Assembly: GCF_013408825.1 (NCBI RefSeq)
Contig: NZ_JACCBZ010000002.1
Span: 558,001-622,000 of the forward strand
DNA: 64,000 nt
Origin: Mucilaginibacter tundrae
GTDB taxonomy: Bacteria > Bacteroidota > Bacteroidia > Sphingobacteriales > Sphingobacteriaceae
Direction of reading: 5' to 3'
This document shows, in pieces, positions 29,121-40,717 of this stretch. Position 1 is the first letter of the stretch. Each line of letters begins with the position of its first letter. Below the pieces are notes generated by a model. That model was given only the letters and a program-made list of their open reading frames with translations. It did not search any database and was not told where the DNA came from. A program made the position numbers and the translations under genes.

Positions 29121-31346
29121 ATGAGTTCCTACCAGGTTGATTTAACCAATTGCGATAAAGAGCCAATACACATACCGGGCAAAATTCAGTCCCATGGTTT
29201 TTTGGTCGCGGTAAATAGCACTACGCAATTAATCACATATATTAGCGAGAATATCCGCCATTTTATAAATGAAGATCCTAAGAATTACCTCGGCTTAAAT
29301 ATCAGCAAATTAGAGAGTAAGCTCCACATATCTATTCTTCAGTTGAGTTTAGGGCAGGTTTTAAAATTAGGGAATAACAATCAATACTTTGAATCTACTA
29401 ACCCCTTTTATCTCGAAATAGATAAAAAGCCTTACAATCTCATCATTTCTGTTTCTGGCGATAACTATATTTTAGAATTTGAAACAGTAGAATCCGATCT
29501 CGACTTCGATATACAAAAAACTATCGGGCGTTCCGTTTCAGAGATCTTATCCGGTAAAAACATAAGTTCTCTATTGCAAAATGCCGCCCAGGAAATTAAG
29601 AATATCATTTTGTATGATAGGGTAATGATTTATCGGTTTGGCGAGGACGGCCATGGCGAAGTAGTTGCCGAAGTAAGAAACGATGACCTTGAACCATTTT
29701 TAGGTCTTCACTATCCGGCATCAGACATACCAAAGCAAGCACGAGAGCTTTACAAAATAAATTTAACCCGTATAATTGCTGATGTAAATAGCGAAAGCTC
29801 ATCTATCATAACACATCAAACCGAAGGTGCTCAGCTTAACCTCACACATTCGGCATTGCGCGCTGTTTCACCTATCCATATTCAGTATTTAAAAAACATG
29901 GGGGTCGGGTCAAGCTTTAGTATCTCCCTTATCGCTCGCGGCGAACTTTGGGGATTGATAGCCTGTCACAACTATTCGCCGCGCTTCATCAATTATAAAG
30001 CACGCGATGCATCAAAATTAATAGGCCAGATCTTATCGTCTGCCCTCGAATACCGCCAGGATGAAGAAGATATTGAAAAAGCTGCTAAACTAAATGCCGC
30101 CGCGGTTGAGCTAGCCACTTATATTGAAAAAGACAACTATATAACCGATGCGCTTACGCGCCACAGCACAACCATTCAGGATATTACAACAGCAAGCGGA
30201 GCGGTTATAGTTTTTGATAACAATATTACCACCATCGGCATCACACCATCACTCGATCAGATAAACGATATAGTAAATTGGCTAAAGGTTAATATGCAGG
30301 ATTCTGTTTATTATACCCATCGCTTTCCCGAAATATTTTTTCAGGCGCAGGCTTACAGCAGCGTTGCAAGTGGCATTTTAGCTTGTATGCTTTCAAAAGA
30401 GCTTTCAGAATTTATCATCTGGTTCAAACCTGAGCAATTAGTGAGTATTAACTGGGCCGGAAATCCAGAAAAACCTGTAGTAGATGATGGTGATGGTTTA
30501 TTACAACTATCGCCGCGAAAATCGTTCGAAAGCTGGAACCAGATCGTAAAAAACACCTCGGAACGCTGGGCTAGTGGTGAAATTGGAGCAGTTATAAAGG
30601 TGCGCGAACAGGTGATGTACGCTATCAATCGTAAAGCTAATGACATCAGGTTGCTTAACGAGCGCCTTAACTTGGCTTATGAAGAGCTGGATACTTTTAG
30701 CTTTACTATTTCGCATGACTTACGTACACCTTTATCATCCATAAAAAGTTATTCGGAGCTTCTATTAGCTAACAATAAAAGTATCGATGATAGTGCCAAA
30801 AGAATATTGGCGCGGATAATTGTAGGTACGGATAAAATGAATTTCCTGATAAAGGAAATCCTGAACTACTCTCGTGTTGGCCGTGCCGAAATGGAATTTG
30901 CTCCGGTTAATATGGGTAGATTGATACATGAAATCAAAAATGAGGTGATCTCTGCGCTAAATCCAAAGAATATAGAATTTGAGATAGGTGAAACCCCAGA
31001 TCTACAGGGAGACGCTACCATGCTTACCCAGGTATTCACCAATTTAATTAATAACGCCGTAAAATACTCATCACGCTCCAACCCCTCAAAAGTTAAGGTT
31101 GAGGGCAAAATAAATAATGATGAAATTATTTATTCGGTGAGTGATAATGGTGTTGGGATTGATGTAAATTATTACAGCCGCGTTTTTGAATTATTTAAAC
31201 GTATGGACAATGTGAAAGATTTTGAAGGTACCGGCGTTGGTTTGGCTATAGTAAAACGCATTGTTGAAAAACATCAGGCACGTATATGGTTTGAAAGCAC
31301 ATTAGAAGTTGGCACAATATTTTATATATCTTTTAAAAATTTATAG
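29121..31346 (+). CDS. bacteriophytochrome sensor histidine kinase
   Basis: Red/far-red light-sensing kinase, 741 residues. Domains in order: PAS (about 1-110), GAF (about 140-315), PHY (about 320-500), HisKA and HATPase (about 520-740). Seen: Cys11 in LTNCDKEPIHIPG, the position that binds biliverdin in bacteriophytochromes; YPASDIPKQAR in GAF; chromophore-pocket SPIHIQYLKNMGVG with Ile instead of the Cys used by plant phytochromes; PHY tongue motif SPRKSFESW; H-box TISHDLRTPLSSI; and G1/G2 boxes VSDNGVGI and GTGVGLAIVKRIV. The usual IQPHG is IQSHG here. It forms an operon with two receivers and heme oxygenase. Confidence 0.96.
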   Translation: MSSYQVDLTNCDKEPIHIPGKIQSHGFLVAVNSTTQLITYISENIRHFINEDPKNYLGLNISKLESKLHISILQLSLGQVLKLGNNNQYFESTNPFYLEIDKKPYNLIISVSGDNYILEFETVESDLDFDIQKTIGRSVSEILSGKNISSLLQNAAQEIKNIILYDRVMIYRFGEDGHGEVVAEVRNDDLEPFLGLHYPASDIPKQARELYKINLTRIIADVNSESSSIITHQTEGAQLNLTHSALRAVSPIHIQYLKNMGVGSSFSISLIARGELWGLIACHNYSPRFINYKARDASKLIGQILSSALEYRQDEEDIEKAAKLNAAAVELATYIEKDNYITDALTRHSTTIQDITTASGAVIVFDNNITTIGITPSLDQINDIVNWLKVNMQDSVYYTHRFPEIFFQAQAYSSVASGILACMLSKELSEFIIWFKPEQLVSINWAGNPEKPVVDDGDGLLQLSPRKSFESWNQIVKNTSERWASGEIGAVIKVREQVMYAINRKANDIRLLNERLNLAYEELDTFSFTISHDLRTPLSSIKSYSELLLANNKSIDDSAKRILARIIVGTDKMNFLIKEILNYSRVGRAEMEFAPVNMGRLIHEIKNEVISALNPKNIEFEIGETPDLQGDATMLTQVFTNLINNAVKYSSRSNPSKVKVEGKINNDEIIYSVSDNGVGIDVNYYSRVFELFKRMDNVKDFEGTGVGLAIVKRIVEKHQARIWFESTLEVGTIFYISFKNL

Positions 31347-31349
31347 ATA

Positions 31350-31769
31350 GTGAGTAGTCCCGATATTTTTTATGTAGAAGACGATACGGATTTTGCGTTC
31401 ATAATGGAGAATGCCGTGCAAGAAGTGAGTAATGGTTTATCCATTAAAATTATTGAAAATGGTAAGGATGCATTGGAAGCGTTAGAACAGTTAACCCAGG
31501 CTAAAGTGAAACCCAAACTAATTTTACTCGACTTAAATTTACCTGGCTTATCAGGGCTCGACCTGGTTAAAAGAATAAGGGAAATACCTTTTTTAAGATA
31601 CACTCCCGTAATTTTCTTTTCAACATCTGACAACCCTAAAGATGTTAAAGCCTCTTTAGAATTTGGCGCGAATGCTTATTTAACTAAGCCTTCGGGCTAT
31701 TTAAATTTAGTTTCGTGTTTACAATCCATGCATGATTTTTGGTTTACCAAAAACCTGAACTTAAATTAA
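31350..31769 (+). CDS. phytochrome-associated response regulator (receiver only)
   Basis: 139 residues starting at GTG, 3 bases after the phytochrome stop. Seen: acidic pair in IFYVEDDTDF, phosphoacceptor in LILLDLNLPGLSGLDLVKRI, Thr/Ser in VIFFSTSDNP, and Lys in AYLTKPSGYLNL. This Rcp1-like type, with a long loop before the Asp strand (KVKPKLILLD), is typical of the partner regulators of phytochrome kinases, so it is the likely direct phosphate target. No DNA-binding domain, so output passes through protein contact or a relay. Confidence 0.93.
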   Translation: MSSPDIFYVEDDTDFAFIMENAVQEVSNGLSIKIIENGKDALEALEQLTQAKVKPKLILLDLNLPGLSGLDLVKRIREIPFLRYTPVIFFSTSDNPKDVKASLEFGANAYLTKPSGYLNLVSCLQSMHDFWFTKNLNLN

Positions 31770-31774
31770 TATTT

Positions 31775-32137
31775 GTGAAAAGAATACTGGTAATTGAGGA
31801 TGATCAGGATATAGCTGACATAGTTGAATATGCGCTTACAGAGAAATACATGGTGCAAACTCAAACAGATAATAATCTGATTTTAAATTCAATTGAGAAT
31901 TTTACGCCCGATCTTATAATGCTAGATAATCAATTGGGCCAAAAAAACGCTCCTGAGATTATAAAACAAATAAAAAGCGTTGATGCTTATAAAAACATAC
32001 CGTTTGTCCTTTTCTCAGGTCATCATGACATAAAACGTATTGCCATAGAAATTGATGCAGATGCATATTTAGCAAAACCTTTTTCACTAGTGGATCTTTA
32101 TTCATGTATCGACTTGGTTTTAACTGACTGTGCCTAA
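31775..32137 (+). CDS. second receiver-domain protein of the phytochrome operon
   Basis: 120 residues from GTG at 31775; an in-frame ATG at 31739 overlaps the preceding gene by 31 bases and adds an unlikely leader. Seen: RILVIEDDQDIADI, phosphoacceptor in DLIMLDNQLGQ, VLFSGHHD with Ser in the Thr position, and YLAKPFSLVDL. It resembles the receiver at 23585 more than its direct neighbour (MLDN/LLDN box). Two single-domain receivers behind one kinase suggest branching or a phosphate sink, an inference. Confidence 0.88.
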   Translation: MKRILVIEDDQDIADIVEYALTEKYMVQTQTDNNLILNSIENFTPDLIMLDNQLGQKNAPEIIKQIKSVDAYKNIPFVLFSGHHDIKRIAIEIDADAYLAKPFSLVDLYSCIDLVLTDCA

Positions 32138-32176
32138 TACGCTTTAGCTATCTTAGCAAAAAACATCTATCCCAAA

Positions 32177-32764
32177 ATGCTCCACGAAACATTAAAGCAA
32201 GCCACCAAAAATAACCACGACGAATTGGAGCAACTGATGTTTGTGAACGACATCATGAGTGGAACTTTATCGCTATCCCATTATAAGCAAATACTTACTA
32301 CCAACTATTTAGTGCATAAAGATTTTGAAGATTTTTTATTTGATAATTTAAGTAGTAAAACCGCGGAGCAATTAAACGCCGCTAACCGTAAAAAACTACC
32401 TGCTTTAATTGCTGATATGCAGGCATTAAAAATGGATATCCCCTCGCCCTTTTATAATCAAAAACTAAATTTTGATAAAAATGACGCCTCACTTTTAGGA
32501 GCATTATACGTATTGGAAGGTGCAACATTAGGTGGCAGCGTAATTGTTAAAAGGTTAAAAACCAATCCATATTTAAGTACTTTGAACCTCGATTTTAACT
32601 ACTACCAGGTTTATGGGAACGACCTTATTCCTTATTGGAAAACATTTTGCGCAGTATTAAACCAGCAAGGCGAAAATGGGTACGAAGGTGCAATAAACAG
32701 CGCTAAAAAAATGTTCGGTTATATTGCTTCTGTACAATTGCAAAACAATAATTGGGTAGCTTAG
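32177..32764 (+). CDS. biliverdin-producing heme oxygenase
   Basis: Opens heme to biliverdin IXalpha (or another isomer), CO and iron; here it would supply the phytochrome chromophore. Seen: 195 residues, a HO-like helical bundle with the proximal His at 14 (TKNNHDELEQL) and the diagnostic glycine-rich distal helix ALYVLEGATLGGSVI. Length and layout fit BphO/HmuO-type enzymes. Only 39 bases after the receiver gene, on the same strand, so cotranscription with the sensor is likely. An iron-acquisition role is less likely, as no heme uptake genes are near. Confidence 0.93.
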   Translation: MLHETLKQATKNNHDELEQLMFVNDIMSGTLSLSHYKQILTTNYLVHKDFEDFLFDNLSSKTAEQLNAANRKKLPALIADMQALKMDIPSPFYNQKLNFDKNDASLLGALYVLEGATLGGSVIVKRLKTNPYLSTLNLDFNYYQVYGNDLIPYWKTFCAVLNQQGENGYEGAINSAKKMFGYIASVQLQNNNWVA

Positions 32765-33467: not shown

Positions 33468-34190
33468 ATGACTAAAAAGAAGATACTGATAACCGGGGCC
33501 AGCAGGGGTTTAGGACTGGCTATAGCAAAAAAGTTATCAGCTGATTATATGTTAATTTTACATGCCTCAAGCAAGGATAGTTTTACAGAAACCATCCCCA
33601 ATAGTGAGTTTCTTTGTGCCGATTTTAACGACAGCGACCAGGTTACCGACTTTTGTAAACAATTAAAAAAACAACACGGCGATTCTCTGTATGGTATAAT
33701 AAACAATGCAGGTATAACTTTTGACAAGCCATTAAATTATCAGCCTGACAAAGAAATAGATGCCATGCTGAATATAAATTTACGTGCACCTATCATGATT
33801 TGTAAAACCGCTATGAAGATTTTTGGTTTAAATCAAAGCGGCGTCATCATCAATATCAGTTCAGTAGTTGGCGAAACAGGCAATGCGTTCCAATCGGTTT
33901 ACGCGGCTACAAAAGCAGGTTTGGCTGCACTTTCGCGCTCATTAGCACAGGAAGCAGCGGCATTGAACCAGGAACATACAATCAGGGTACTAAGTGTATC
34001 ACCGGGTTTTATCCAAACGGATATGACGGATAGTATTCCTGAAACGATAAAAGATAAATACTTAAATATGATACCCGCCAAAAGGTTTGGTAAGGTTGAT
34101 GATATAGCAGAGGCTGTTGCTTTTTTAGTTTCGGATAAAGCAACATATATAAATGGCACAAATATTCACATTAATGGTGGATTAATATAA
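33468..34190 (+). CDS. 3-oxoacyl-ACP reductase-like SDR (FabG type) of the acyl cluster
   Basis: Would reduce beta-ketoacyl-ACP with NADPH. 240 residues, the size of FabG. Seen: TGASRGLGLAIAKKL cofactor loop, IINNAGIT, Ser131/132 in INISSVVG, Tyr145 and Lys149 in VYAATKAGLAALSRSLAQEA, VLSVSPGFIQTDMTDSIPE, and INGTNIHINGGLI at the end. The catalytic triad is complete. First gene of an eight-gene same-strand block; the next start follows its stop directly. A housekeeping fabG presumably exists elsewhere, so this looks like a pathway-specific paralogue (inference). Confidence 0.9.
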   Translation: MTKKKILITGASRGLGLAIAKKLSADYMLILHASSKDSFTETIPNSEFLCADFNDSDQVTDFCKQLKKQHGDSLYGIINNAGITFDKPLNYQPDKEIDAMLNINLRAPIMICKTAMKIFGLNQSGVIINISSVVGETGNAFQSVYAATKAGLAALSRSLAQEAAALNQEHTIRVLSVSPGFIQTDMTDSIPETIKDKYLNMIPAKRFGKVDDIAEAVAFLVSDKATYINGTNIHINGGLI

Positions 34191-34772
34191 ATGGGAATAA
34201 CTGATACTTCACAAATTAAGGATAACCTGGTAGGCGAATTGCCCGAAAACTGGTTGATACACGGCCCTAAAAAGCGTTTGGTAAGTGCCTTTCATTGGCA
34301 TAAGCCTAAAGTTGGTGTGGTAGCCAGTTATACGCCTAATGAGAATGATGTTGAGGACCATTTTGATATATTCCGCGGAGTGGATATGATCGAATCATTC
34401 GCGCAGGCTACCGTTGTTGCGGCAGCTACATTTTTAGAGTCGAAGAAACAGGATATGGTGCCGGAGGAATTGTCAAAATTACTCATCCCTACATTCATCA
34501 GTTTGGGCAATGTGTTTTTCCACTCCTATTTGGAAAAGGGTCAAACATTTGTTAACATTGGATTTATCAAGTTTTACAAATGGCGCCAAATGGTTTGTGA
34601 AGGAAGAATTTACCGCGCGCCAAAAGGCCTTGACCTTGATGCATACTTTAAGGATTTTGACGAAGAGCGCTTAAAAAATTACGATATAGGAGAAGGATTT
34701 GTGCTGATTGCCGAACTATTTGACATCACCGGCAGGGGAATAAAAAAAGAGATGTTTGAAAAACTACAATAA
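34191..34772 (+). CDS. hot-dog-fold protein, probable 3-hydroxyacyl-ACP dehydratase-like (FabZ/FabA-like)
   Basis: 193 residues. Seen: VEDHFDIFRGVDMIESFAQA at 54-73, which aligns with the FabZ/FabA helix (xxHFPGxPxxPGVxxIEAxAQ). The candidate catalytic His57 and Glu68 are kept but the PGxP loop is lost. A basic N-terminal part (GPKKRLVSAFHWHKPK) and a C-terminal KGLDLDAYFKDFDEERLKNY are specific to this form. Position between ketoreductase and ACP fits the dehydration step. No stronger family name can be given; it could instead be a non-catalytic or chain-length-controlling hot-dog protein. Confidence 0.7.
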   Translation: MGITDTSQIKDNLVGELPENWLIHGPKKRLVSAFHWHKPKVGVVASYTPNENDVEDHFDIFRGVDMIESFAQATVVAAATFLESKKQDMVPEELSKLLIPTFISLGNVFFHSYLEKGQTFVNIGFIKFYKWRQMVCEGRIYRAPKGLDLDAYFKDFDEERLKNYDIGEGFVLIAELFDITGRGIKKEMFEKLQ

Positions 34773-34779
34773 CACTATA

Positions 34780-35046
34780 ATGGAAAGACAGGAAATAATT
34801 GATGGATTGGTTGAAGTATTAAGAACAGTGAGAACAGTTGACCCGGCTAAATTGGAGAACGTAACCGAAGAAACTGATTTTTTAACAGATATGAACACTC
34901 CATCAACTGAGTTAATAAACATCGCCGCTAAAGTTGAGCAAAAATTTAATGTCGAGTTTGAGGACGAAGACATTGATGAGTTAGGCTCAAAAGTAAAAGA
35001 CATCGTAGATCTGATCATCAAAGCGAAAGAACGCGAAAATTCTTAA
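34780..35046 (+). CDS. dedicated acyl carrier protein
   Basis: 88 residues, acidic, MERQEIIDGLVEVLRTVRTV, then TEETDFLTDMNTPSTELINI with Ser42 at the phosphopantetheine position, placed 14 residues before the Phe of the helix II end as in standard ACPs. The usual DSL motif is replaced by P-Ser-T, so the transferase contact differs. An ATG 24 bases further upstream overlaps the previous gene and is less likely. The neighbour AcpS-like enzyme may be specific for this carrier (inference). Confidence 0.88.
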   Translation: MERQEIIDGLVEVLRTVRTVDPAKLENVTEETDFLTDMNTPSTELINIAAKVEQKFNVEFEDEDIDELGSKVKDIVDLIIKAKERENS

Positions 35047-35056
35047 ACCTTAAACT

Positions 35057-36406
35057 ATGTCAGTAGCCGGCAGAAAAGTAGCAGTTGTAGGTATGGGTGG
35101 CGCTTTCCCAGATTGTGCCGACATCAATGTCTTTAACCAAAAAATATTTTCCGGTCAAAGCTTGATAAGAGAGTGGCCAAAAGCCGCTGAGCGCGACAAA
35201 CAAATACGGTCAAAAGTATCAGGCTTTATCAATGATAACGATCTTGGAATCCAGCCCATATACCTTGTTGATGGCTATGAATGGCCCGAAACATTTGTAG
35301 ATACAAGTGGTCGTATTCCCGATGTTAACATGTCCACTGCCGATCTGGGTTGCGTTTGGGCAATGATGGGCACCCTGGATTCTATTGAAATGGCTGGTTG
35401 GACGACGGAAGAAACCCAATCAGAAAAAACCGGTGTCGTAATTGCTTCAGGCGGGGGTGGCAACGTTATTATGCGTAACGCCTGGCATGCTTTTTTTGAA
35501 TTAGGTAAAAAATCCCGTCACGCAGGCTCGCACATGGTTGATAGGGCTATGTCGTATCGCGAAGCTGCAAACGTTTCTTGCTTGATTAAAAACCGTGGCG
35601 TATGCGAATCTATTGTTTCGGCTTGTGCTACAGGTTTGGGCAATATTGGTTATGCGTACCGCTTAATAAAATTCGGCTTGCAGGATCGTGCTGTTGCCGG
35701 TGGCGTTGAAGGCACATCGCTGGAAACTTTTATCGGCTTTGATGCCATGCAGGTTTTAAGTAAAGGCTTTAGCCCTGCCGAAAGTTCGCGACCTTTTGAT
35801 GTGAAACGAAACGGTTTTGTATGTTCATTCGGGGCTGGCATAGTAGCTTTGGAAGAGTATGAAATGGCAAAAGCACGAGGCGCTAATATTTTAGCCGTGA
35901 TCGATGAGTATTTCAACAATTCCGATGGCGACGGCGATATGTTCTACCCGTCATATGGTGGGCAGAGAAGATTATGGAAAGGCTTGTCTGCAGAAGCAGT
36001 TATTAAACCTGATGTGGTTAAAGTACACGGCACCGCAACACCGGTAGGTGATATATTAGAGCTGATAAGTGTTGTGGATACGCTTGGTGAAAGCGGCTAT
36101 CACGTTTCAGCACCTAAATCACAATTTGGGCACATGCTGGGCGCGGCAGGATCTGTGGAGTTTATCACAGCATTGCTAATGCTCAAAAATCAACAGGTGC
36201 CGGGTTGTATAAATTCTGAAAACTTAAATCCGGAGCTGGAAAACTTCCAGAAAAAAGAAGGATGGGAAGGCTCGATGAAACCTGCGGCGGCATACAGAGA
36301 TTTGATCCCGCAGCAAACCATAAGCAAAGAGATAAACCAGATCGTTTGTTTAAACTATGGCTTCGGCGGCACTAACAGCGCCATGGCCATATCAAGAGAT
36401 AATTAA
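35057..36406 (+). CDS. beta-ketoacyl-ACP synthase (FabF/KAS II-like)
   Basis: Condenses malonyl-ACP with an acyl chain. 449 residues, slightly longer than FabF (about 412) because of an extended region near residues 30-110 (KAAERDKQIRSKVSGFIND, LVDGYEWPETFVDTSG). Seen: nucleophile Cys190 in SIVSACATGLGN, His324 in VHGTATPVGD and His359 in SQFGHMLGAAGS, plus LNYGFGGTNSAMAIS at the end: the full C-H-H triad of an active elongating enzyme rather than a chain-length factor. It starts 10 bases after the ACP stop. Only one ketosynthase is present, which speaks for an elongating fatty-acid-like system over a KS/CLF polyketide synthase. Confidence 0.92.
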   Translation: MSVAGRKVAVVGMGGAFPDCADINVFNQKIFSGQSLIREWPKAAERDKQIRSKVSGFINDNDLGIQPIYLVDGYEWPETFVDTSGRIPDVNMSTADLGCVWAMMGTLDSIEMAGWTTEETQSEKTGVVIASGGGGNVIMRNAWHAFFELGKKSRHAGSHMVDRAMSYREAANVSCLIKNRGVCESIVSACATGLGNIGYAYRLIKFGLQDRAVAGGVEGTSLETFIGFDAMQVLSKGFSPAESSRPFDVKRNGFVCSFGAGIVALEEYEMAKARGANILAVIDEYFNNSDGDGDMFYPSYGGQRRLWKGLSAEAVIKPDVVKVHGTATPVGDILELISVVDTLGESGYHVSAPKSQFGHMLGAAGSVEFITALLMLKNQQVPGCINSENLNPELENFQKKEGWEGSMKPAAAYRDLIPQQTISKEINQIVCLNYGFGGTNSAMAISRDN

Positions 36407-36421
36407 AGTAGAGAACAGAGC

Positions 36422-36534
36422 TACGAAGTTTTTAAAACTTCGTAACTCTTAATGTCATTGCGAAGAACGAAGCAATCACCCGGAAGCAAGACGAAAATGC
36501 AAAGCTCGCAATTGCTTCGCCCCCGCAATGACAT
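36422..36534. repeat. two hairpin repeats inside the acyl cluster
   Basis: Perfect 11-base arms TACGAAGTTTT/AAAACTTCGTA (36422-36444). An outer pair ATGTCATTGCG/CGCAATGACAT (36452-36462, 36524-36534) encloses GAAGCAAT/ATTGCTTC. They fill the 142-base gap between ketosynthase and enoyl reductase genes. Confidence 0.8.
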
Positions 36535-36548
36535 AGAGAATAATATCC

Positions 36549-37361
36549 ATGATCGATAACAAAAACAAAGTTGCAGTAATATTCGGCGTCAGGAATGATA
36601 GCTCCATTGCTTATGATGTGGCCTTAAAGCTTAGTCAATCAGGCTGCAAAGTGGCCTTAAGTTATGTTGCCGATACTAAGGACAATGTTTTATACCTGAT
36701 GGGAAAAATGGGTATGGAGCTGCAATACGCCGCCGAAGTTGATGTACGTAACGAAGAGCAAATCGCCAATTTCTTGCAAACTGTTTATGATGGCTTAGGC
36801 CCTATCGATTATTTATTGCATGGTGTGGCATTTGGCAACCAGGCGGTAATGTGTTACAGCATCCCGGGCAGCAAGGAAATTGCTTCCTCTTATATCGATA
36901 TCCCCTTTGAGGATTTCATGGATTCCTTCAATATCAGCGCTTATTCACTATTGAGAGTAGCACGTGTTGCCGAAAATCTATTAGCGCCTAATGCATCTAT
37001 ACTAACGCTTACATACAATGCATCACAAAGGGTATTCCCGCAGTATGCAGGCATGGCTATTAATAAAGCGGCTTTAGAAAACATCATGATGTACTTGGCA
37101 AGCTATTTTCGCGATAAAAAAGTACGTGTTAACGCTATCTCTGCAGGCTTGGTCATGACTACTTCATCAGGTGTGATTTTCGGTGTTCGCAAATTGCGCA
37201 AAATGGGTAAATTCACTGCTCCGCTAGGTAATATCGAGGCCGGTGATGTAGGTGATACCGCATTATATTACTTTTCCGATCTTTCTAAAAAAGTTACCGG
37301 CAACATCCATTATGTTGATGGCGGGTTTAATATTATGGGCTTAGCAGTAGATGAACAATAA
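36549..37361 (+). CDS. enoyl-ACP reductase-like SDR (FabI type)
   Basis: Would reduce the trans-2-enoyl-ACP double bond with NAD(P)H. 270 residues. Seen: FGVRNDSSIAYDVALKL (the FabI form of the cofactor loop), Tyr156, Tyr166 and Lys173 in TYNASQRVFPQYAGMAINKA with the same spacing as E. coli FabI Tyr146/Tyr156/Lys163, RVNAISAGLVMTTSSGVIFG and GNIHYVDGGFNIMGL. The conserved AGPIxTLA segment of FabI is changed to AGLVMTTSS, so substrate or triclosan sensitivity may differ (inference). Overlaps the next gene by 11 bases. Confidence 0.9.
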   Translation: MIDNKNKVAVIFGVRNDSSIAYDVALKLSQSGCKVALSYVADTKDNVLYLMGKMGMELQYAAEVDVRNEEQIANFLQTVYDGLGPIDYLLHGVAFGNQAVMCYSIPGSKEIASSYIDIPFEDFMDSFNISAYSLLRVARVAENLLAPNASILTLTYNASQRVFPQYAGMAINKAALENIMMYLASYFRDKKVRVNAISAGLVMTTSSGVIFGVRKLRKMGKFTAPLGNIEAGDVGDTALYYFSDLSKKVTGNIHYVDGGFNIMGLAVDEQ

Positions 37362-37752
37362 GCTGTTACAATCGATCAAAGATTTAGCGCTCGACCAAAA
37401 ATTTGCCGTAGGCAACGACCTTGTTTTTCTGCCCGACTTTACCGCATCGTTCAACGAACTCTTTAAAAAGAAGATCTATACCCAAGAAGAAATCGAGTAC
37501 TGCGATCAGTTTGATAATGCGATGCTCAGGTACGCATCAACCTGGGCTGCTAAAGAAGCCGTATATAAAGCCATTAAACAAATAGATGCATCTTCCATCC
37601 CATTCAAAAAAATAGAGATCGTGCGCGAAAAACCTCAAGGCCGTCCGCATGTTATCTTACACAAAAAGCCAAACGAGTTCAATATCAGCTTAACAATATC
37701 TCACGACGGAGAGTATATTTGGGCCCTGGCATTAATCGAAATCAACCACTAA
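37351..37752 (+). CDS. AcpS-like 4'-phosphopantetheinyl transferase
   Basis: Would load the phosphopantetheine arm onto the cluster's ACP. 133 residues, the size of AcpS. Seen: VGNDLVFLPDF (Mg-binding Asp, as in GIDIVEIxRF), an acidic-basic middle RYASTWAAKEAVYKAIKQI equal to the W(A/S)AKEAxxKA motif, and the final ISHDGEYIWALAL. It starts within the last 11 bases of the FabI-like gene, so translation is coupled. An own transferase next to an atypical ACP is a sign of a specialised pathway. Confidence 0.9.
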   Translation: MNNKLLQSIKDLALDQKFAVGNDLVFLPDFTASFNELFKKKIYTQEEIEYCDQFDNAMLRYASTWAAKEAVYKAIKQIDASSIPFKKIEIVREKPQGRPHVILHKKPNEFNISLTISHDGEYIWALALIEINH

Positions 37753-37758
37753 CACACA

Positions 37759-38580
37759 TTGACCGACCACTACTTTGAAAACGACCTGGTTAAACTCCAT
37801 TACTACAAATTTGGTAAAGGGGAAAAGACTATGCTTTGTTTTCACGGGTATGGTATGCACGGCAAACAGTTTTTAAAACTGGAGCCTGCATTGGGTAGCA
37901 AATACACTTTTATTGGGTTCGACCTCTTTTTCCACAAGGAAACCAAGCTACATCATCAAAGTCTTGATGATGTAAAACAGCCTATCAACAAAAAAGATTT
38001 TGGCAAGCTTATAGTTGAATTTTGCGCGCATGAGCGAATAGGCCGTTTTTCCGTATTAGGTTATTCGATGGGTTCTCATTATGCGACAACAGTAGTTGAG
38101 GAATTAGGAAACCGCATTGATGAATACATCATCGCCGCACCATCCAGCATTGAACCCGGCAAACTGGTTCGTTTCTTTGTGAAGAATAAGCTGGGTAACA
38201 GAATATTAGAGAAACTCACCCAAAGTCAGAAAGCATTAATAAACATGCTGAATGTGAGCAAGTGGCTGGGTTTGGTTGATGATGTAGGCCGCAATATTTT
38301 ATACAAAGAGATCGACACGCCCGAACTGCGTTTTAACTTTTATGCCTGCTTTACCTACCTGCGTTTGCTGGAAACCGATGAAGATAAATTAATACAAACT
38401 TTAACTAAGCAAAACATCCGCAGCATATTTATATTTGGCAAACGCGATATTATGTATCCGCCAAAAATTGGCAATGCATTCTTCGCGAAGCTAAAAAGAG
38501 CTGAAATTGTAGTTCTCGATCAGGATCATGAAATGATCGGCGAAGAATTCATTGCAGCATTATCCGGTTTATTATTATGA
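37759..38580 (+). CDS. alpha/beta hydrolase of the acyl cluster
   Basis: 273 residues from a TTG start 6 bases after the AcpS stop; no earlier ATG exists, and the first in-frame ATG would cut into the core. Seen: oxyanion region LCFHGYGMHGKQF, nucleophile elbow VLGYSMGSHYA (G-x-S-x-G), Asp in FGKRDIMYP and His in DQDHEMIGEEF, a full Ser-Asp-His triad. A thioesterase that releases the acyl chain, or an esterase on the final product, are both plausible; no substrate can be read. Confidence 0.85.
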   Translation: MTDHYFENDLVKLHYYKFGKGEKTMLCFHGYGMHGKQFLKLEPALGSKYTFIGFDLFFHKETKLHHQSLDDVKQPINKKDFGKLIVEFCAHERIGRFSVLGYSMGSHYATTVVEELGNRIDEYIIAAPSSIEPGKLVRFFVKNKLGNRILEKLTQSQKALINMLNVSKWLGLVDDVGRNILYKEIDTPELRFNFYACFTYLRLLETDEDKLIQTLTKQNIRSIFIFGKRDIMYPPKIGNAFFAKLKRAEIVVLDQDHEMIGEEFIAALSGLLL

Positions 38581-39239
38581 TCATTAAAGCCAAACCATTA
38601 CCGCACTTTCTTTTCAGGATACTGGGATTGATCGCTGCCGCGGTATTCCGTAGCCGTACAAAGCGGTTGGAAATTAATGCTGTAAAACTAAAACCTGGCC
38701 ATTCATATATACTCATGTGTAACCATTTCAGCTTTTGGGATGGTTTTTGGGCGTTTTACGTTTGCAACCGTTTCTATCTAAAAAAGGGTATGAACAAACT
38801 CTTCATCATGTCAGTAAAAAAACAGATGGAGAAAAATAAATGGCTGCAATATATAGGTAGTTTTTCAATAGATCCGGGCAAACGTTCCATTAAAGAAAGC
38901 TTCGAGTACGCCGCTGAGGTCTTATCCGAACCGGGAAACCTGCTCCTATTTTATCCGCAAGGCAACCTGGAAAGCTGCTACATCCGCTACATTAAATTTG
39001 ACGAGGGTTTGTATGAGATCGTCCCTCAAATAAAAGGCGACTGCCAACTGATCTGGTCTACTACCATGGTGGAATATTTTGAGAGCCTAAATCCAACCAT
39101 TACCACCACCATGCTGGATTGTGGAACAAATCACGATTTTGATTTTGATGAGCTAAAGCTGAAAGTAAACAAGTTTCACATTAAAACCATCGAAGATAAT
39201 ATTCGCTTTACCGACGAACCGATCAAATACGATCTTTAG
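38577..39239 (+). CDS. PlsC-family acyltransferase (1-acylglycerol-3-phosphate acyltransferase-like)
   Basis: Transfers an acyl chain to a hydroxyl or lyso-lipid at the membrane. 220 residues, overlapping the hydrolase gene by ATGA. Seen: hydrophobic N-terminus FLFRILGLIAAAVF, H-x4-D motif CNHFSFWDGFWAF, and the FPEG-equivalent LLFYPQGNLES in which Glu is replaced by Gln. The last gene of the block suggests that the acyl product ends up on a lipid or other membrane acceptor. Its stop overlaps the convergent TPR gene by 4 bases. Confidence 0.87.
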   Translation: MIIKAKPLPHFLFRILGLIAAAVFRSRTKRLEINAVKLKPGHSYILMCNHFSFWDGFWAFYVCNRFYLKKGMNKLFIMSVKKQMEKNKWLQYIGSFSIDPGKRSIKESFEYAAEVLSEPGNLLLFYPQGNLESCYIRYIKFDEGLYEIVPQIKGDCQLIWSTTMVEYFESLNPTITTTMLDCGTNHDFDFDELKLKVNKFHIKTIEDNIRFTDEPIKYDL

Positions 39240-40717
39240 CGGTGGATGCGGTCTAAACCCTCTTTAGCTTGCGTATCAATACTGTTTTGGTATTCATGAT
39301 GCTTCATAGTTAAGGCCTGGTTGTAGTAATTAGCCGCAAGATTATAATCCTTAATATATTCATAAATATTGCCGATACATAATGCAGCATTAGCCGCGAA
39401 ATAGTAATTTGATGATCGGCCAATGCTAATTGCCTTGTTATAGCTTGTGATGGCTTCGTTATATTTATTCAGCATTTGGTAAACGCGACCCAGGCGATAG
39501 TTTAATTCTATTTTATCACGTTGCAGCCTTAAATCAGCCTCTTTTTTATCCTGCAATTGTGCAAGAGCTTTGGCATAATATCCCCCATCAAAATAAAATC
39601 TTGCTTTCAATAAATCATTATCAGGCCTTGCATCATTTGCTTCTTTTAAAGCCTGTTGATCTTTCTCATCAACGGCATAACCCTTCGCTTTTACCAGTTT
39701 CAGGTAGTAGTTATATTTCGACTCATCGCCTTTTAACAAGTAGTAATAGGCTATTTTAAGATAAGAGTCCTTGATATAATTTACGCCCTTATACTCGCTG
39801 ATGTATTTTAAAAAATATGTATAAGAGTCAGTGTCCATCCGGCACAACTTTGCGCAGCCTAACAAATAATCGGCAATGGGTAATTCAACGTATTGGCTCG
39901 ATTTGGGCAACGCCTCCAGGTTTGCAATAGCATCATCATTATGCCCGGTTTTAGCGGCCACATAACCCTGCAAATAGATACGAAGTAAGCTTTTGCTATC
40001 CATATCACTCAGGTAAGCAGTAAGCTTGGCATAATTATCCTTTTTATGTAGTACGTCGGTATTCATGTAACATAAAAAGAAAACAATTTCCTCTTTATAA
40101 AAAGCATACCGGGTGCCTTGTACCTGGGTGCGGAGTTTTTCAAGCTCTCCAACGCCACCTTCAATATTACCCGCCATTCCTAAAAACCGGGCTACACTTT
40201 TTAAATTTGATGGCAAAGCACCAAATACTACGTTTATCAACGCCAGGCATTTTTGATTGGGTAAAAAATCGGGATACTTCGCAGCGTTATCTTCCAGCAG
40301 GCTACGGGCTTTCTTCAAATCGCTCGCCGACGACATGTAATCGCCAAACTTTCCTTTGATCAACCCCCATTGTAAATAAACCTCTGCCTGCGAATACAGG
40401 TAATAAGGCGAGTTATCCTCATTCGCTTCCAATGCATCCAACCTGCTCGATTTAAGGTCGACTAACCGTTTATAGTCCGCCTTGCTATCAGAAACTAACA
40501 GGCCCATGTAGTCCACATAATTATCCAATAAAATAGGGATCCCGTTTTGCGAGCTTTGCTGTTTTTCCTGTTGAATGAGCGCTCGGGCATCGTTTAATCT
40601 CAATTCAAAAATAGCCTTATAAGCCTGCATGCAGCGGGCATCAAAAATATAATTGGCGCTTGCTGTTAACCGGCAACTTAAAAGAGCTATAACTAATACA
40701 ATATGTTTATAATTCAT
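39236..40717 (-). CDS. secreted TPR protein
   Basis: 493 residues. Seen: signal peptide HIVLVIALLSCRLTASA, then many helix pairs of TPR type. The clearest are at the C-terminus: NYRLGRVYQMLNKYNEAITS, YNKAISIGRSSNYYFAANAA and CIGNIYEYIKDYNLAANYYN. The middle (LRIYLQGYVAAKTGHNDDAI) is also TPR-like. Probably a periplasmic protein-protein interaction scaffold; partner unknown. Its 3' end touches the acyltransferase gene. The LpxR-like gene lies 60 bases upstream on the same strand, so both may be cotranscribed. Confidence 0.82.
   Translation of the reverse strand: MNYKHIVLVIALLSCRLTASANYIFDARCMQAYKAIFELRLNDARALIQQEKQQSSQNGIPILLDNYVDYMGLLVSDSKADYKRLVDLKSSRLDALEANEDNSPYYLYSQAEVYLQWGLIKGKFGDYMSSASDLKKARSLLEDNAAKYPDFLPNQKCLALINVVFGALPSNLKSVARFLGMAGNIEGGVGELEKLRTQVQGTRYAFYKEEIVFFLCYMNTDVLHKKDNYAKLTAYLSDMDSKSLLRIYLQGYVAAKTGHNDDAIANLEALPKSSQYVELPIADYLLGCAKLCRMDTDSYTYFLKYISEYKGVNYIKDSYLKIAYYYLLKGDESKYNYYLKLVKAKGYAVDEKDQQALKEANDARPDNDLLKARFYFDGGYYAKALAQLQDKKEADLRLQRDKIELNYRLGRVYQMLNKYNEAITSYNKAISIGRSSNYYFAANAALCIGNIYEYIKDYNLAANYYNQALTMKHHEYQNSIDTQAKEGLDRIHR

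Follow-up and report, generated by a model that had tools for sequence, protein, structure and literature searches.

Why would a bacterium with ordinary fatty-acid enzymes carry a second, nearly complete set of type II fatty acid synthase (FAS) genes that ends in an acyltransferase? The question is raised by Mucilaginibacter tundrae (genome of 4.83 Mb), in which the stretch analysed here (64,000 nucleotides, positions 558,001 to 622,000 of contig NZ_JACCBZ010000002.1; the window) contains eight genes on one strand at positions 33468-39239. All eight open reading frames were found where a first-pass annotation by a model had placed them, and in order they encode a ketoreductase (KR), a dehydratase (DH), an acyl carrier protein (ACP), a ketosynthase (KS), an enoyl reductase (ER), a phosphopantetheinyl transferase (PPTase or PPT), an alpha/beta hydrolase (ABH) and an acyltransferase (AT). 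Our data support a cluster that is separate from the primary FAS, and we lean towards the view that it would provide a private supply of acyl-ACP for the O-acylation of an envelope lipid or glycolipid. The features are as follows.

33468..34190, plus strand: FabG-like short-chain dehydrogenase/reductase (SDR), beta-ketoacyl-ACP reductase (KR); Pfam adh_short_C2, 1.4e-46; TIGR01830, 210.9 bits, below the cut-off of 297.75; Ser132/Tyr145/Lys149.
34191..34772, plus strand: FabZ-fold 3-hydroxyacyl-ACP dehydratase (DH), from a structure model, Foldseek and a profile search; His57/Glu68.
34780..35046, plus strand: dedicated ACP; PF00550, 21.1 bits, cut-off 20.8; alignment with AcpP.
35057..36406, plus strand: ketosynthase (KS) of 449 amino acids, in a clade of its own on the FabB side of the tree; PF00109/PF02801; Cys190/His324/His359.
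36407..36548, no strand: KS-ER gap of 142 bp with a palindrome (arms 36417-36432 and 36434-36449, 94% complementary).
36549..37361, plus strand: FabI-like enoyl-ACP reductase (ER); FabI models at most 181.9 bits, below their cut-offs; Tyr156/Tyr166/Lys173.
37351..37752, plus strand: AcpS-like 4'-phosphopantetheinyl transferase (PPTase); PF01648, 1e-13; TIGR00556, 58.2, above the cut-off of 45.35.
37759..38580, plus strand: alpha/beta hydrolase (ABH) with a TTG start; PF00561, 1.6e-10; Ser103/Asp230/His257.
38577..39239, plus strand: acyltransferase (AT) of the lysophospholipid acyltransferase (LPLAT) fold; HX4D motif, model fold and tree.
39236..40717, minus strand: convergent tetratricopeptide repeat (TPR) protein, a likely partner; TPR domains, signal-peptide-like N-terminus and co-occurrence.

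The ACP start was taken as the ATG at 34780, the open reading frame list giving a TTG at 34756. In gene order the spacings are 0, 7, 10, 142, -11, 6 and -4 bp. The earlier description of the genes as tightly spaced or overlapping thus holds for six junctions (-11 to 10 bp) and fails at the KS-ER gap. The palindrome in this gap has arms of 16 nucleotides each, and a second inverted repeat with longer spacing lies in the same interval (36407-36548). A 21-nucleotide motif from the gap occurs once in the window. The repeat may be an inserted element or a control site.

Separateness from the primary FAS was examined at the level of the genome, which has 13 PF00109 matches. These include a FabF of 417 amino acids adjacent to acpP, whose ACP is of the DSL type (L110), and a second FabF-like KS. 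In the tree, the L110 KS and the second FabF-like KS grouped with E. coli FabF (93/90), whereas 16 cluster KS sequences formed one clade (100/100) apart from the FabF rows, on the FabB side. The latter placement is tentative because the tree program warns of long branches. FabB was the nearest of the sequences compared (33% identity), and the scores of the KS against the FabF equivalog TIGR03150 (229.8, cut-off 493.75) and the FabB (KAS I) model NF005935 (216.2, cut-off 630) did not reach the respective cut-offs. The best 120 of 7951 hits in a KS homologue search were all near relatives and gave no help for a deeper placement. The genome also contains ten PF00550 matches, to which the cluster ACP does not belong, 17 hits for the ER protein (the closest other than itself being another FabI-like reductase, with 32% identity), and six PF01553 and five PF01648 matches, each count including the cluster's own protein. 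The first-pass annotation had suggested a separate pathway, to be abandoned if other housekeeping genes were missing or the KS fell inside FabF. Other FabF, acpP and FabI-like copies are present (fabG, fabZ, fabD and fabH were not searched), and the KS stands in its own clade outside housekeeping FabF. Given these copies, the separate KS clade and the occurrence of the cluster in 42 of 151 genomes of the family, the possibility that this is the primary FAS was rejected; the same occurrence means that the cluster is dispensable. No ammonia-lyase, DarB or KS/chain length factor (CLF) pair is found among the eight genes, which hold a single KS, as had also been noted at first pass. Elsewhere in the genome, reading of the sequences pointed to KS/CLF-like clusters (C1:170-178 kb and C6:203-208 kb) and an ammonia-lyase-like gene (C6:202-203 kb).

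The catalytic residues of the enzymes are intact and conserved. Counts were made on open reading frames from 81 loci (window included), limited for each family to those that grouped with it and were longer than 0.8 of the family median; ACPs that did not join the ACP cluster are left out. The KS triad and the ER residues are intact, as claimed at first pass, and were kept in 80 of 80 and 76 of 76 homologues, respectively; the DH pair was found in 78 of 78 and the KR triad in 76 of 76. ABH Ser103 and Asp230 were present in 63/63 and His257 in 62/63, the remaining row having a gap there. AT His50/Asp55 (HX4D) was conserved in 66/66 and the ACP serine in 60/60. Aligned with that of AcpP, this serine sits in P-S-T, whereas E. 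coli and housekeeping AcpP have D-S-L; the lack of the DSL motif fits a dedicated carrier.

Seven of the eight proteins have Pfam matches if the AT, 0.1 bit under the cut-off, is counted. Neither Pfam nor NCBIfam gave a match for the DH. An AlphaFold2 model of this protein, built from 17 aligned rows (pLDDT 92.7), matched FabZ structures in Foldseek with a best E-value of 2.6e-8, and a profile search found 4h4g (FabZ, E 0.0017) with His57/Glu68 lining up with the FabZ pair. The hot-dog dehydratase assignment of the first pass is thereby upheld. The KS carries two additional segments compared with FabB and FabF. At the first Phe position of the S-F-G-F-G-G block known from the E. coli enzymes it has Tyr434; the second Phe (Phe436) is retained, and both residues are invariant (15/15). 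The gating residue of E. coli FabB is Phe391 according to the available text of PMC8358021. A role of Tyr434 as the gate was rejected, since a recount of FabB assigns Phe391 to the block's second Phe, and this residue is retained in the cluster KS. Against the PF01553 cut-off of 23, the AT scored 22.9 in one scan and 23.8 in another. Its model (15 rows, pLDDT 77.8) matched PatA (3.6e-6), PlsC (7.7e-6), GPAT and LpxM, all with E <0.001, so that the PlsC-like assignment stands, with an LPLAT fold and an intact HX4D motif. PlsC has an F-P-E-G-T-R block; at its position the AT has P-Q-G..L-E, with Gln128 and Glu132 in 66/66. When PDB sequences were searched with the AT profile, a single chance-level match came up.

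The distribution of the cluster is patchy. Searches with DH, KS and the strongest AT class retrieved the same 42 of 151 Sphingobacteriaceae genomes, among them seven of the 19 listed for the genus. At least three of 395 genomes of a phylum sample (best eight candidates scored per genome) carry the cluster, and all belong to the same family. Of 137 relatives detected by a KS scan of genome contigs, the 80 best were retained; the nearest named ones are from Mucilaginibacter, with 97% identity in Mucilaginibacter sp. L196. All eight genes were present in 60 of these 80 fetched loci. The search of gene order across relatives that had been proposed at first pass therefore reveals synteny beyond chance. 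Four of the 20 incomplete loci end at contig edges (L028, L035, L074 and L090).

Where the AT comes from is indicated by its relatives. A profile search of the 151 genomes separated three AT classes by bit score (class 1, 331 and up; class 2, 190-224; class 3, the weaker-scoring class, up to 165; the lines were drawn after seeing the gaps). Class 1 occurred in exactly the 42 cluster genomes and class 2 in 19 genomes without and none with the cluster; a partial match in G446 (163.8 bits, contig end) was excluded from the class 2 count. In the genus, class 2 was present in 12 of 12 listed genomes without the cluster KS and in none of the seven with it. An ABH homologue is paired with the class 2 AT in 19/19 loci (L135 is cut by a contig end), and not one of the 151 genomes has both types of ABH-AT pair. 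Fifteen of the 19 class 2 loci lie in an operon with a class 3 AT, a glycosyltransferase and CruF, together with IspH in 14, CrtW in 11 and CrtD in 10 within the fetched stretch. In the three loci tested (L126, L128 and L130), CrtD (626 vs 500) and Caroten_synth scored above their cut-offs, while the CrtW, CruF and CruG models remained under theirs and the glycosyltransferase scored slightly higher with HpnB. In the AT tree, the 12 class 1 rows formed one clade (100/100) beside ten class 2 rows from carotenoid operons (91/92), and two rows from the four standalone class 2 loci branched earlier (82/100). The AT is thus placed as a descendant of a carotenoid-operon LPLAT, with support for the nesting (91/92) below the program's star line. 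Outside the family, at least 11 AT homologues were found in 395 genomes of the class (best seven candidates scored per genome). Nine of them lie beside CrtD, CruF or a glycosyltransferase, L159 being counted through CrtD alone; the exceptions are L157 and L163. Probably, the ABH-AT pair was recruited from the carotenoid-operon pair of cluster-free relatives.

This relationship raises the possibility that the ABH-AT pair puts the private chain on the sugar, or a hydroxyl, of a carotenoid glycoside, in a step like that of salinixanthin. Besides the operon context, the nesting and the mutual exclusion of the two pair types, such a role would fit the higher frequency of CruF matches in cluster genomes (33/42) than in the others (51/109) and the precedent of fatty-acid esters of carotenoid glucosides in Rhodothermus and Salinibacter, reported in the accessible part of PMC5822342. 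However, the CruF operon is not found in every host. CruF was without a match in nine of the 42 cluster genomes; eight of these also lack a second match to the AT family, and two are one-contig assemblies (G485 and G492). In all of nine cluster genomes picked for having class 3, the carotenoid operon is retained with its own class 3 AT and the second ABH-AT pair is absent. Furthermore, a search of the flanks (as far as 8 kb) around 80 cluster loci gave no match at E 1e-10 to the glycosyltransferase, CruF, IspH, CrtW or CrtD. The genomes without CruF and the flanks without carotenoid genes indicate that the acceptor is probably independent of that operon, or that the AT has changed its acceptor. 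For the same two reasons we ranked a strict carotenoid-acceptor model below the more general envelope lipid or glycolipid, and we consider it unlikely.

Next to the AT, and overlapping it tail to tail by 4 bp, lies the gene for the TPR protein (493 amino acids), whose N-terminus resembles a signal peptide as judged from the sequence. At 51 of the 81 loci this gene occurs within the flanks fetched, 42 times convergent downstream and nine times codirectional upstream. It lies within 500 bp in 45 of the 51; of the other six, three are short pieces and one (L057) has no computed gap. A profile search, in which the best ten candidates were scored per genome so that counts are lower bounds, gave matches in at least 80 of the 151 genomes. 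Above 700 bits, a line set after inspection of the score gaps, at least 36 genomes matched and all bear the cluster (at least 36/42 with the KS vs 0/109 without; Fisher p = 6.6e-29, a statistic that ignores relatedness). A second subfamily (365-645 bits) occurs in at least 44 genomes, 40 without the cluster KS and four with it (G080, G412, G470 and G499). The two classes separate in the tree with 100/100 each (16 and 9 rows). Within the same ten candidates per genome, two cluster genomes (G507 and G532) gave no match. The TPR protein as a universal partner was therefore rejected, as four cluster genomes have the second subfamily only and two have no match. At four loci displayed of nine fetched (L118, L119, L121 and L124), the second-subfamily gene adjoins genes whose products we take from their sequences to be Nif3-like and zinc-ribbon-like, and at L118 it overlaps a KAS III-like gene (named from its sequence) tail to tail.

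Taken together, four elongation activities, an ACP and a PPTase with intact residues in one operon support a self-contained secondary type II acyl-ACP synthase that would have its own off-loading step. We infer the following course of reactions. The AcpS-like PPTase would convert the unusual ACP into holo-ACP. Malonyl groups and the starter would be drawn from the primary FAS because the operon has neither FabD nor FabH. Full reduction cycles by KS, KR, DH and ER would then produce a saturated acyl chain on the private ACP, or a 2-enoyl or 3-hydroxy acyl chain where the ER is skipped, and the private ACP would keep this chain apart from phospholipid synthesis. The intact LPLAT suggests that the chain is transferred to an acceptor, presumably a membrane-bound lipid or glycolipid that is O-acylated. 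The ABH may be an editing or deacylating partner of the AT, and the putatively secreted TPR protein may act with the system outside the cytoplasm.

Several observations weigh against this proposal. Five loci have an AT without an ABH (L036, L056, L059, L060 and L092, the last also without an ER), L051 lacks KR, ABH and AT, and in two metagenome-assembled genomes (MAGs; L042 and L046) only DH, ACP and KS are left, with a large unrelated gene after the KS in L046. Hence the ABH, and perhaps the AT, is not always needed. Since versions of the cluster outside the family have no AT, the acyl-making core can exist without an LPLAT. In the ABH tree the two ABH types form two clades, with a long-branch warning, and no nesting of the cluster type was seen. 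The link between the TPR protein and the cluster may partly reflect lineage, and the three codirectional TPR copies in the tree form one branch.

The loci without ABH and AT are eight in number (L085, L087, L091, L093, L095, L097, L101 and L102) and stem from Zobellia, Aquimarina, Taibaiella and MAGs; for L097 the absence covers a fetched stretch that stops soon after the PPT. Seven of them (not L093) have an extra gene family between KR and DH, which was FabA in both loci tested (86.5 and 79.2 bits; cut-off 23). A different alpha/beta hydrolase precedes KR in L087, L091 and L101 (Pfam tested in L087), and a GNAT-type gene does so in L093, L095, L097 and L102; the only one of these tested, in L095, scored 21.7 bits against FeeM, under the cut-off of 27. 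L085 has neither gene before KR. These variants retain the acyl-making core and have swapped the off-loading end. It is conceivable, though tentative, that a core of KR, optionally FabA, DH, ACP, KS, ER and PPT is interchangeable in scattered Bacteroidota and is joined to different off-loading ends: the carotenoid-derived ABH-LPLAT pair and a dedicated secreted TPR protein in Sphingobacteriaceae, another hydrolase in Zobellia and Aquimarina, and an N-acyl amino acid synthase resembling FeeM in Taibaiella and three MAGs. The products might then be undescribed envelope lipids or signals.

Additional observations concern the neighbourhood of these clusters. The FeeM-like loci L095, L097 and L102 share a TPR-rich, sensor-like gene family; the sensor-like gene of L095 stops roughly 400 bp ahead of the FeeM-like one, a hint of a signal molecule. 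L053, L089 and L099 have a toxin-antitoxin type pair, an Xre/MbcA/ParS-type antitoxin and a RES-domain protein, between PPT and ABH (domains tested in L053). Gene runs common to L059 and L092 (ribosomal protein genes) and to L089 and L099 were read as ordinary synteny. Just upstream of the operon (29121-32764), the window contains a bacteriophytochrome-like kinase, response regulators and a heme-oxygenase-like gene, as read from the sequence.

An alternative product would be a short or hydroxylated acyl group for a sugar of lipopolysaccharide or capsule, as for wfpC-G of Flavobacterium psychrophilum. These genes form a dedicated ACP/KS/KR set proposed for a 3,5-dihydroxyhexanoyl group, as described in the part of PMC6519341 available. 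Moreover, the own genome has, at C6:214-218 kb (L109:14326-17806), a small set of SDR/ER-like, FabZ-like, KS, ACP and PPTase genes followed by a glycosyltransferase-like gene (by eye). The ACP serine of that set sits in N-S-A, and the set resembles an O-antigen acyl-group pathway. On the other hand, the operon contains no sugar-nucleotide, glycosyltransferase or sugar N-acyltransferase gene, and among flank families in at least ten of the 81 loci only the TPR protein was notable and none was glycosyltransferase-like (judged by eye, no family search). The accessible description in PMC6519341 does not name an ER among the wfp genes and gives wfpG as a pglD homologue, whereas the AT has an LPLAT fold. 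We regard this product as improbable. Least probable is a primary or accessory membrane FAS that merely tunes phospholipid acyl chains, which the full reduction cycle and the PlsC-like fold would suit but the patchy occurrence, the separate housekeeping set, the KS outside FabF, the non-DSL ACP and the distance in the tree between the AT and the two PlsC-type proteins of the same genome included there (a third stretch, L156, held no protein with the motif and was left out) speak against.

In the Mucilaginibacter/Pedobacter family, some bacteria of soil and water possess, in addition to their ordinary enzymes, a complete second fat-making set with its own carrier and a putative attaching enzyme. 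New are the TPR subfamily tied to the cluster, the nesting of the AT among carotenoid-operon ABH-AT pairs and the variants with exchanged off-loading ends. As the set is compact, nearly complete and dispensable and has its own carrier and transferase, its loss should cost one product and not the membrane. Membership of the AT in a carotenoid-operon family offers a first testable guess at the acceptor. The exchange of terminal enzymes from lineage to lineage leads to the prediction that one kind of chain is placed on different acceptor molecules in related bacteria.

Among known systems, aryl polyene (APE) clusters carry an ammonia-lyase. Unlike APE and flexirubin clusters, the operon contains neither this nor an aryl starter gene and no KS/CLF pair, and it has an ER with intact residues, so that its chains should be reduced. 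Shared with these systems are dedicated ACPs and a FabB-like KS, ApeR (PMC8358021, as far as the accessible text goes). The APE cluster of E. coli CFT073 has KR, dehydratase and two KS genes side by side, and its ApeR is 25.6% identical to the cluster KS. A survey of Bacteroidetes gene clusters names flexirubin and flexixanthin clusters in its available portion (PMC9248904). The wfpC-G genes, from the same phylum, likewise make up an additional type II FAS-like set that is dedicated, includes an ACP of its own and feeds an acyltransferase; by the partial description in PMC6519341 they differ in having two KS and a pglD-like acyltransferase in place of one KS, ER, PPTase, ABH and LPLAT. With the carotenoid glycoside acyltransferases, namely CruD and the putative LPLATs of Bacteroidota carotenoid operons, the cluster shares an AT nested in a family mostly of carotenoid operons, but this AT lies outside such an operon and also occurs in genomes without a CruF match. 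In Rhodothermus marinus, CruC has been proposed for the sugar step and CruD for the acyl step (PMC5822342; for CruD also PMC6166724; both in the parts available), and CruD is likened here by this described role, not by sequence. Among the sequences compared, the KS is closest to FabB of the E. coli FabA-FabB system, and seven relatives have a FabA-type gene after KR; the KS nevertheless stays far below the FabB cut-off, and the operon in the window has no FabA. As far as the available descriptions go, none of the known systems compared combines a PPTase, an ER, a hydrolase and an LPLAT with one FabB-side KS, and a literature search, with subscription papers mostly outside its coverage, found no description of the eight-gene set. 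Devoting a distinct type II FAS-like set to one special acyl group, as proposed here, has precedents in wfpC-G, the aryl polyenes and the carotenoid glucoside esters.

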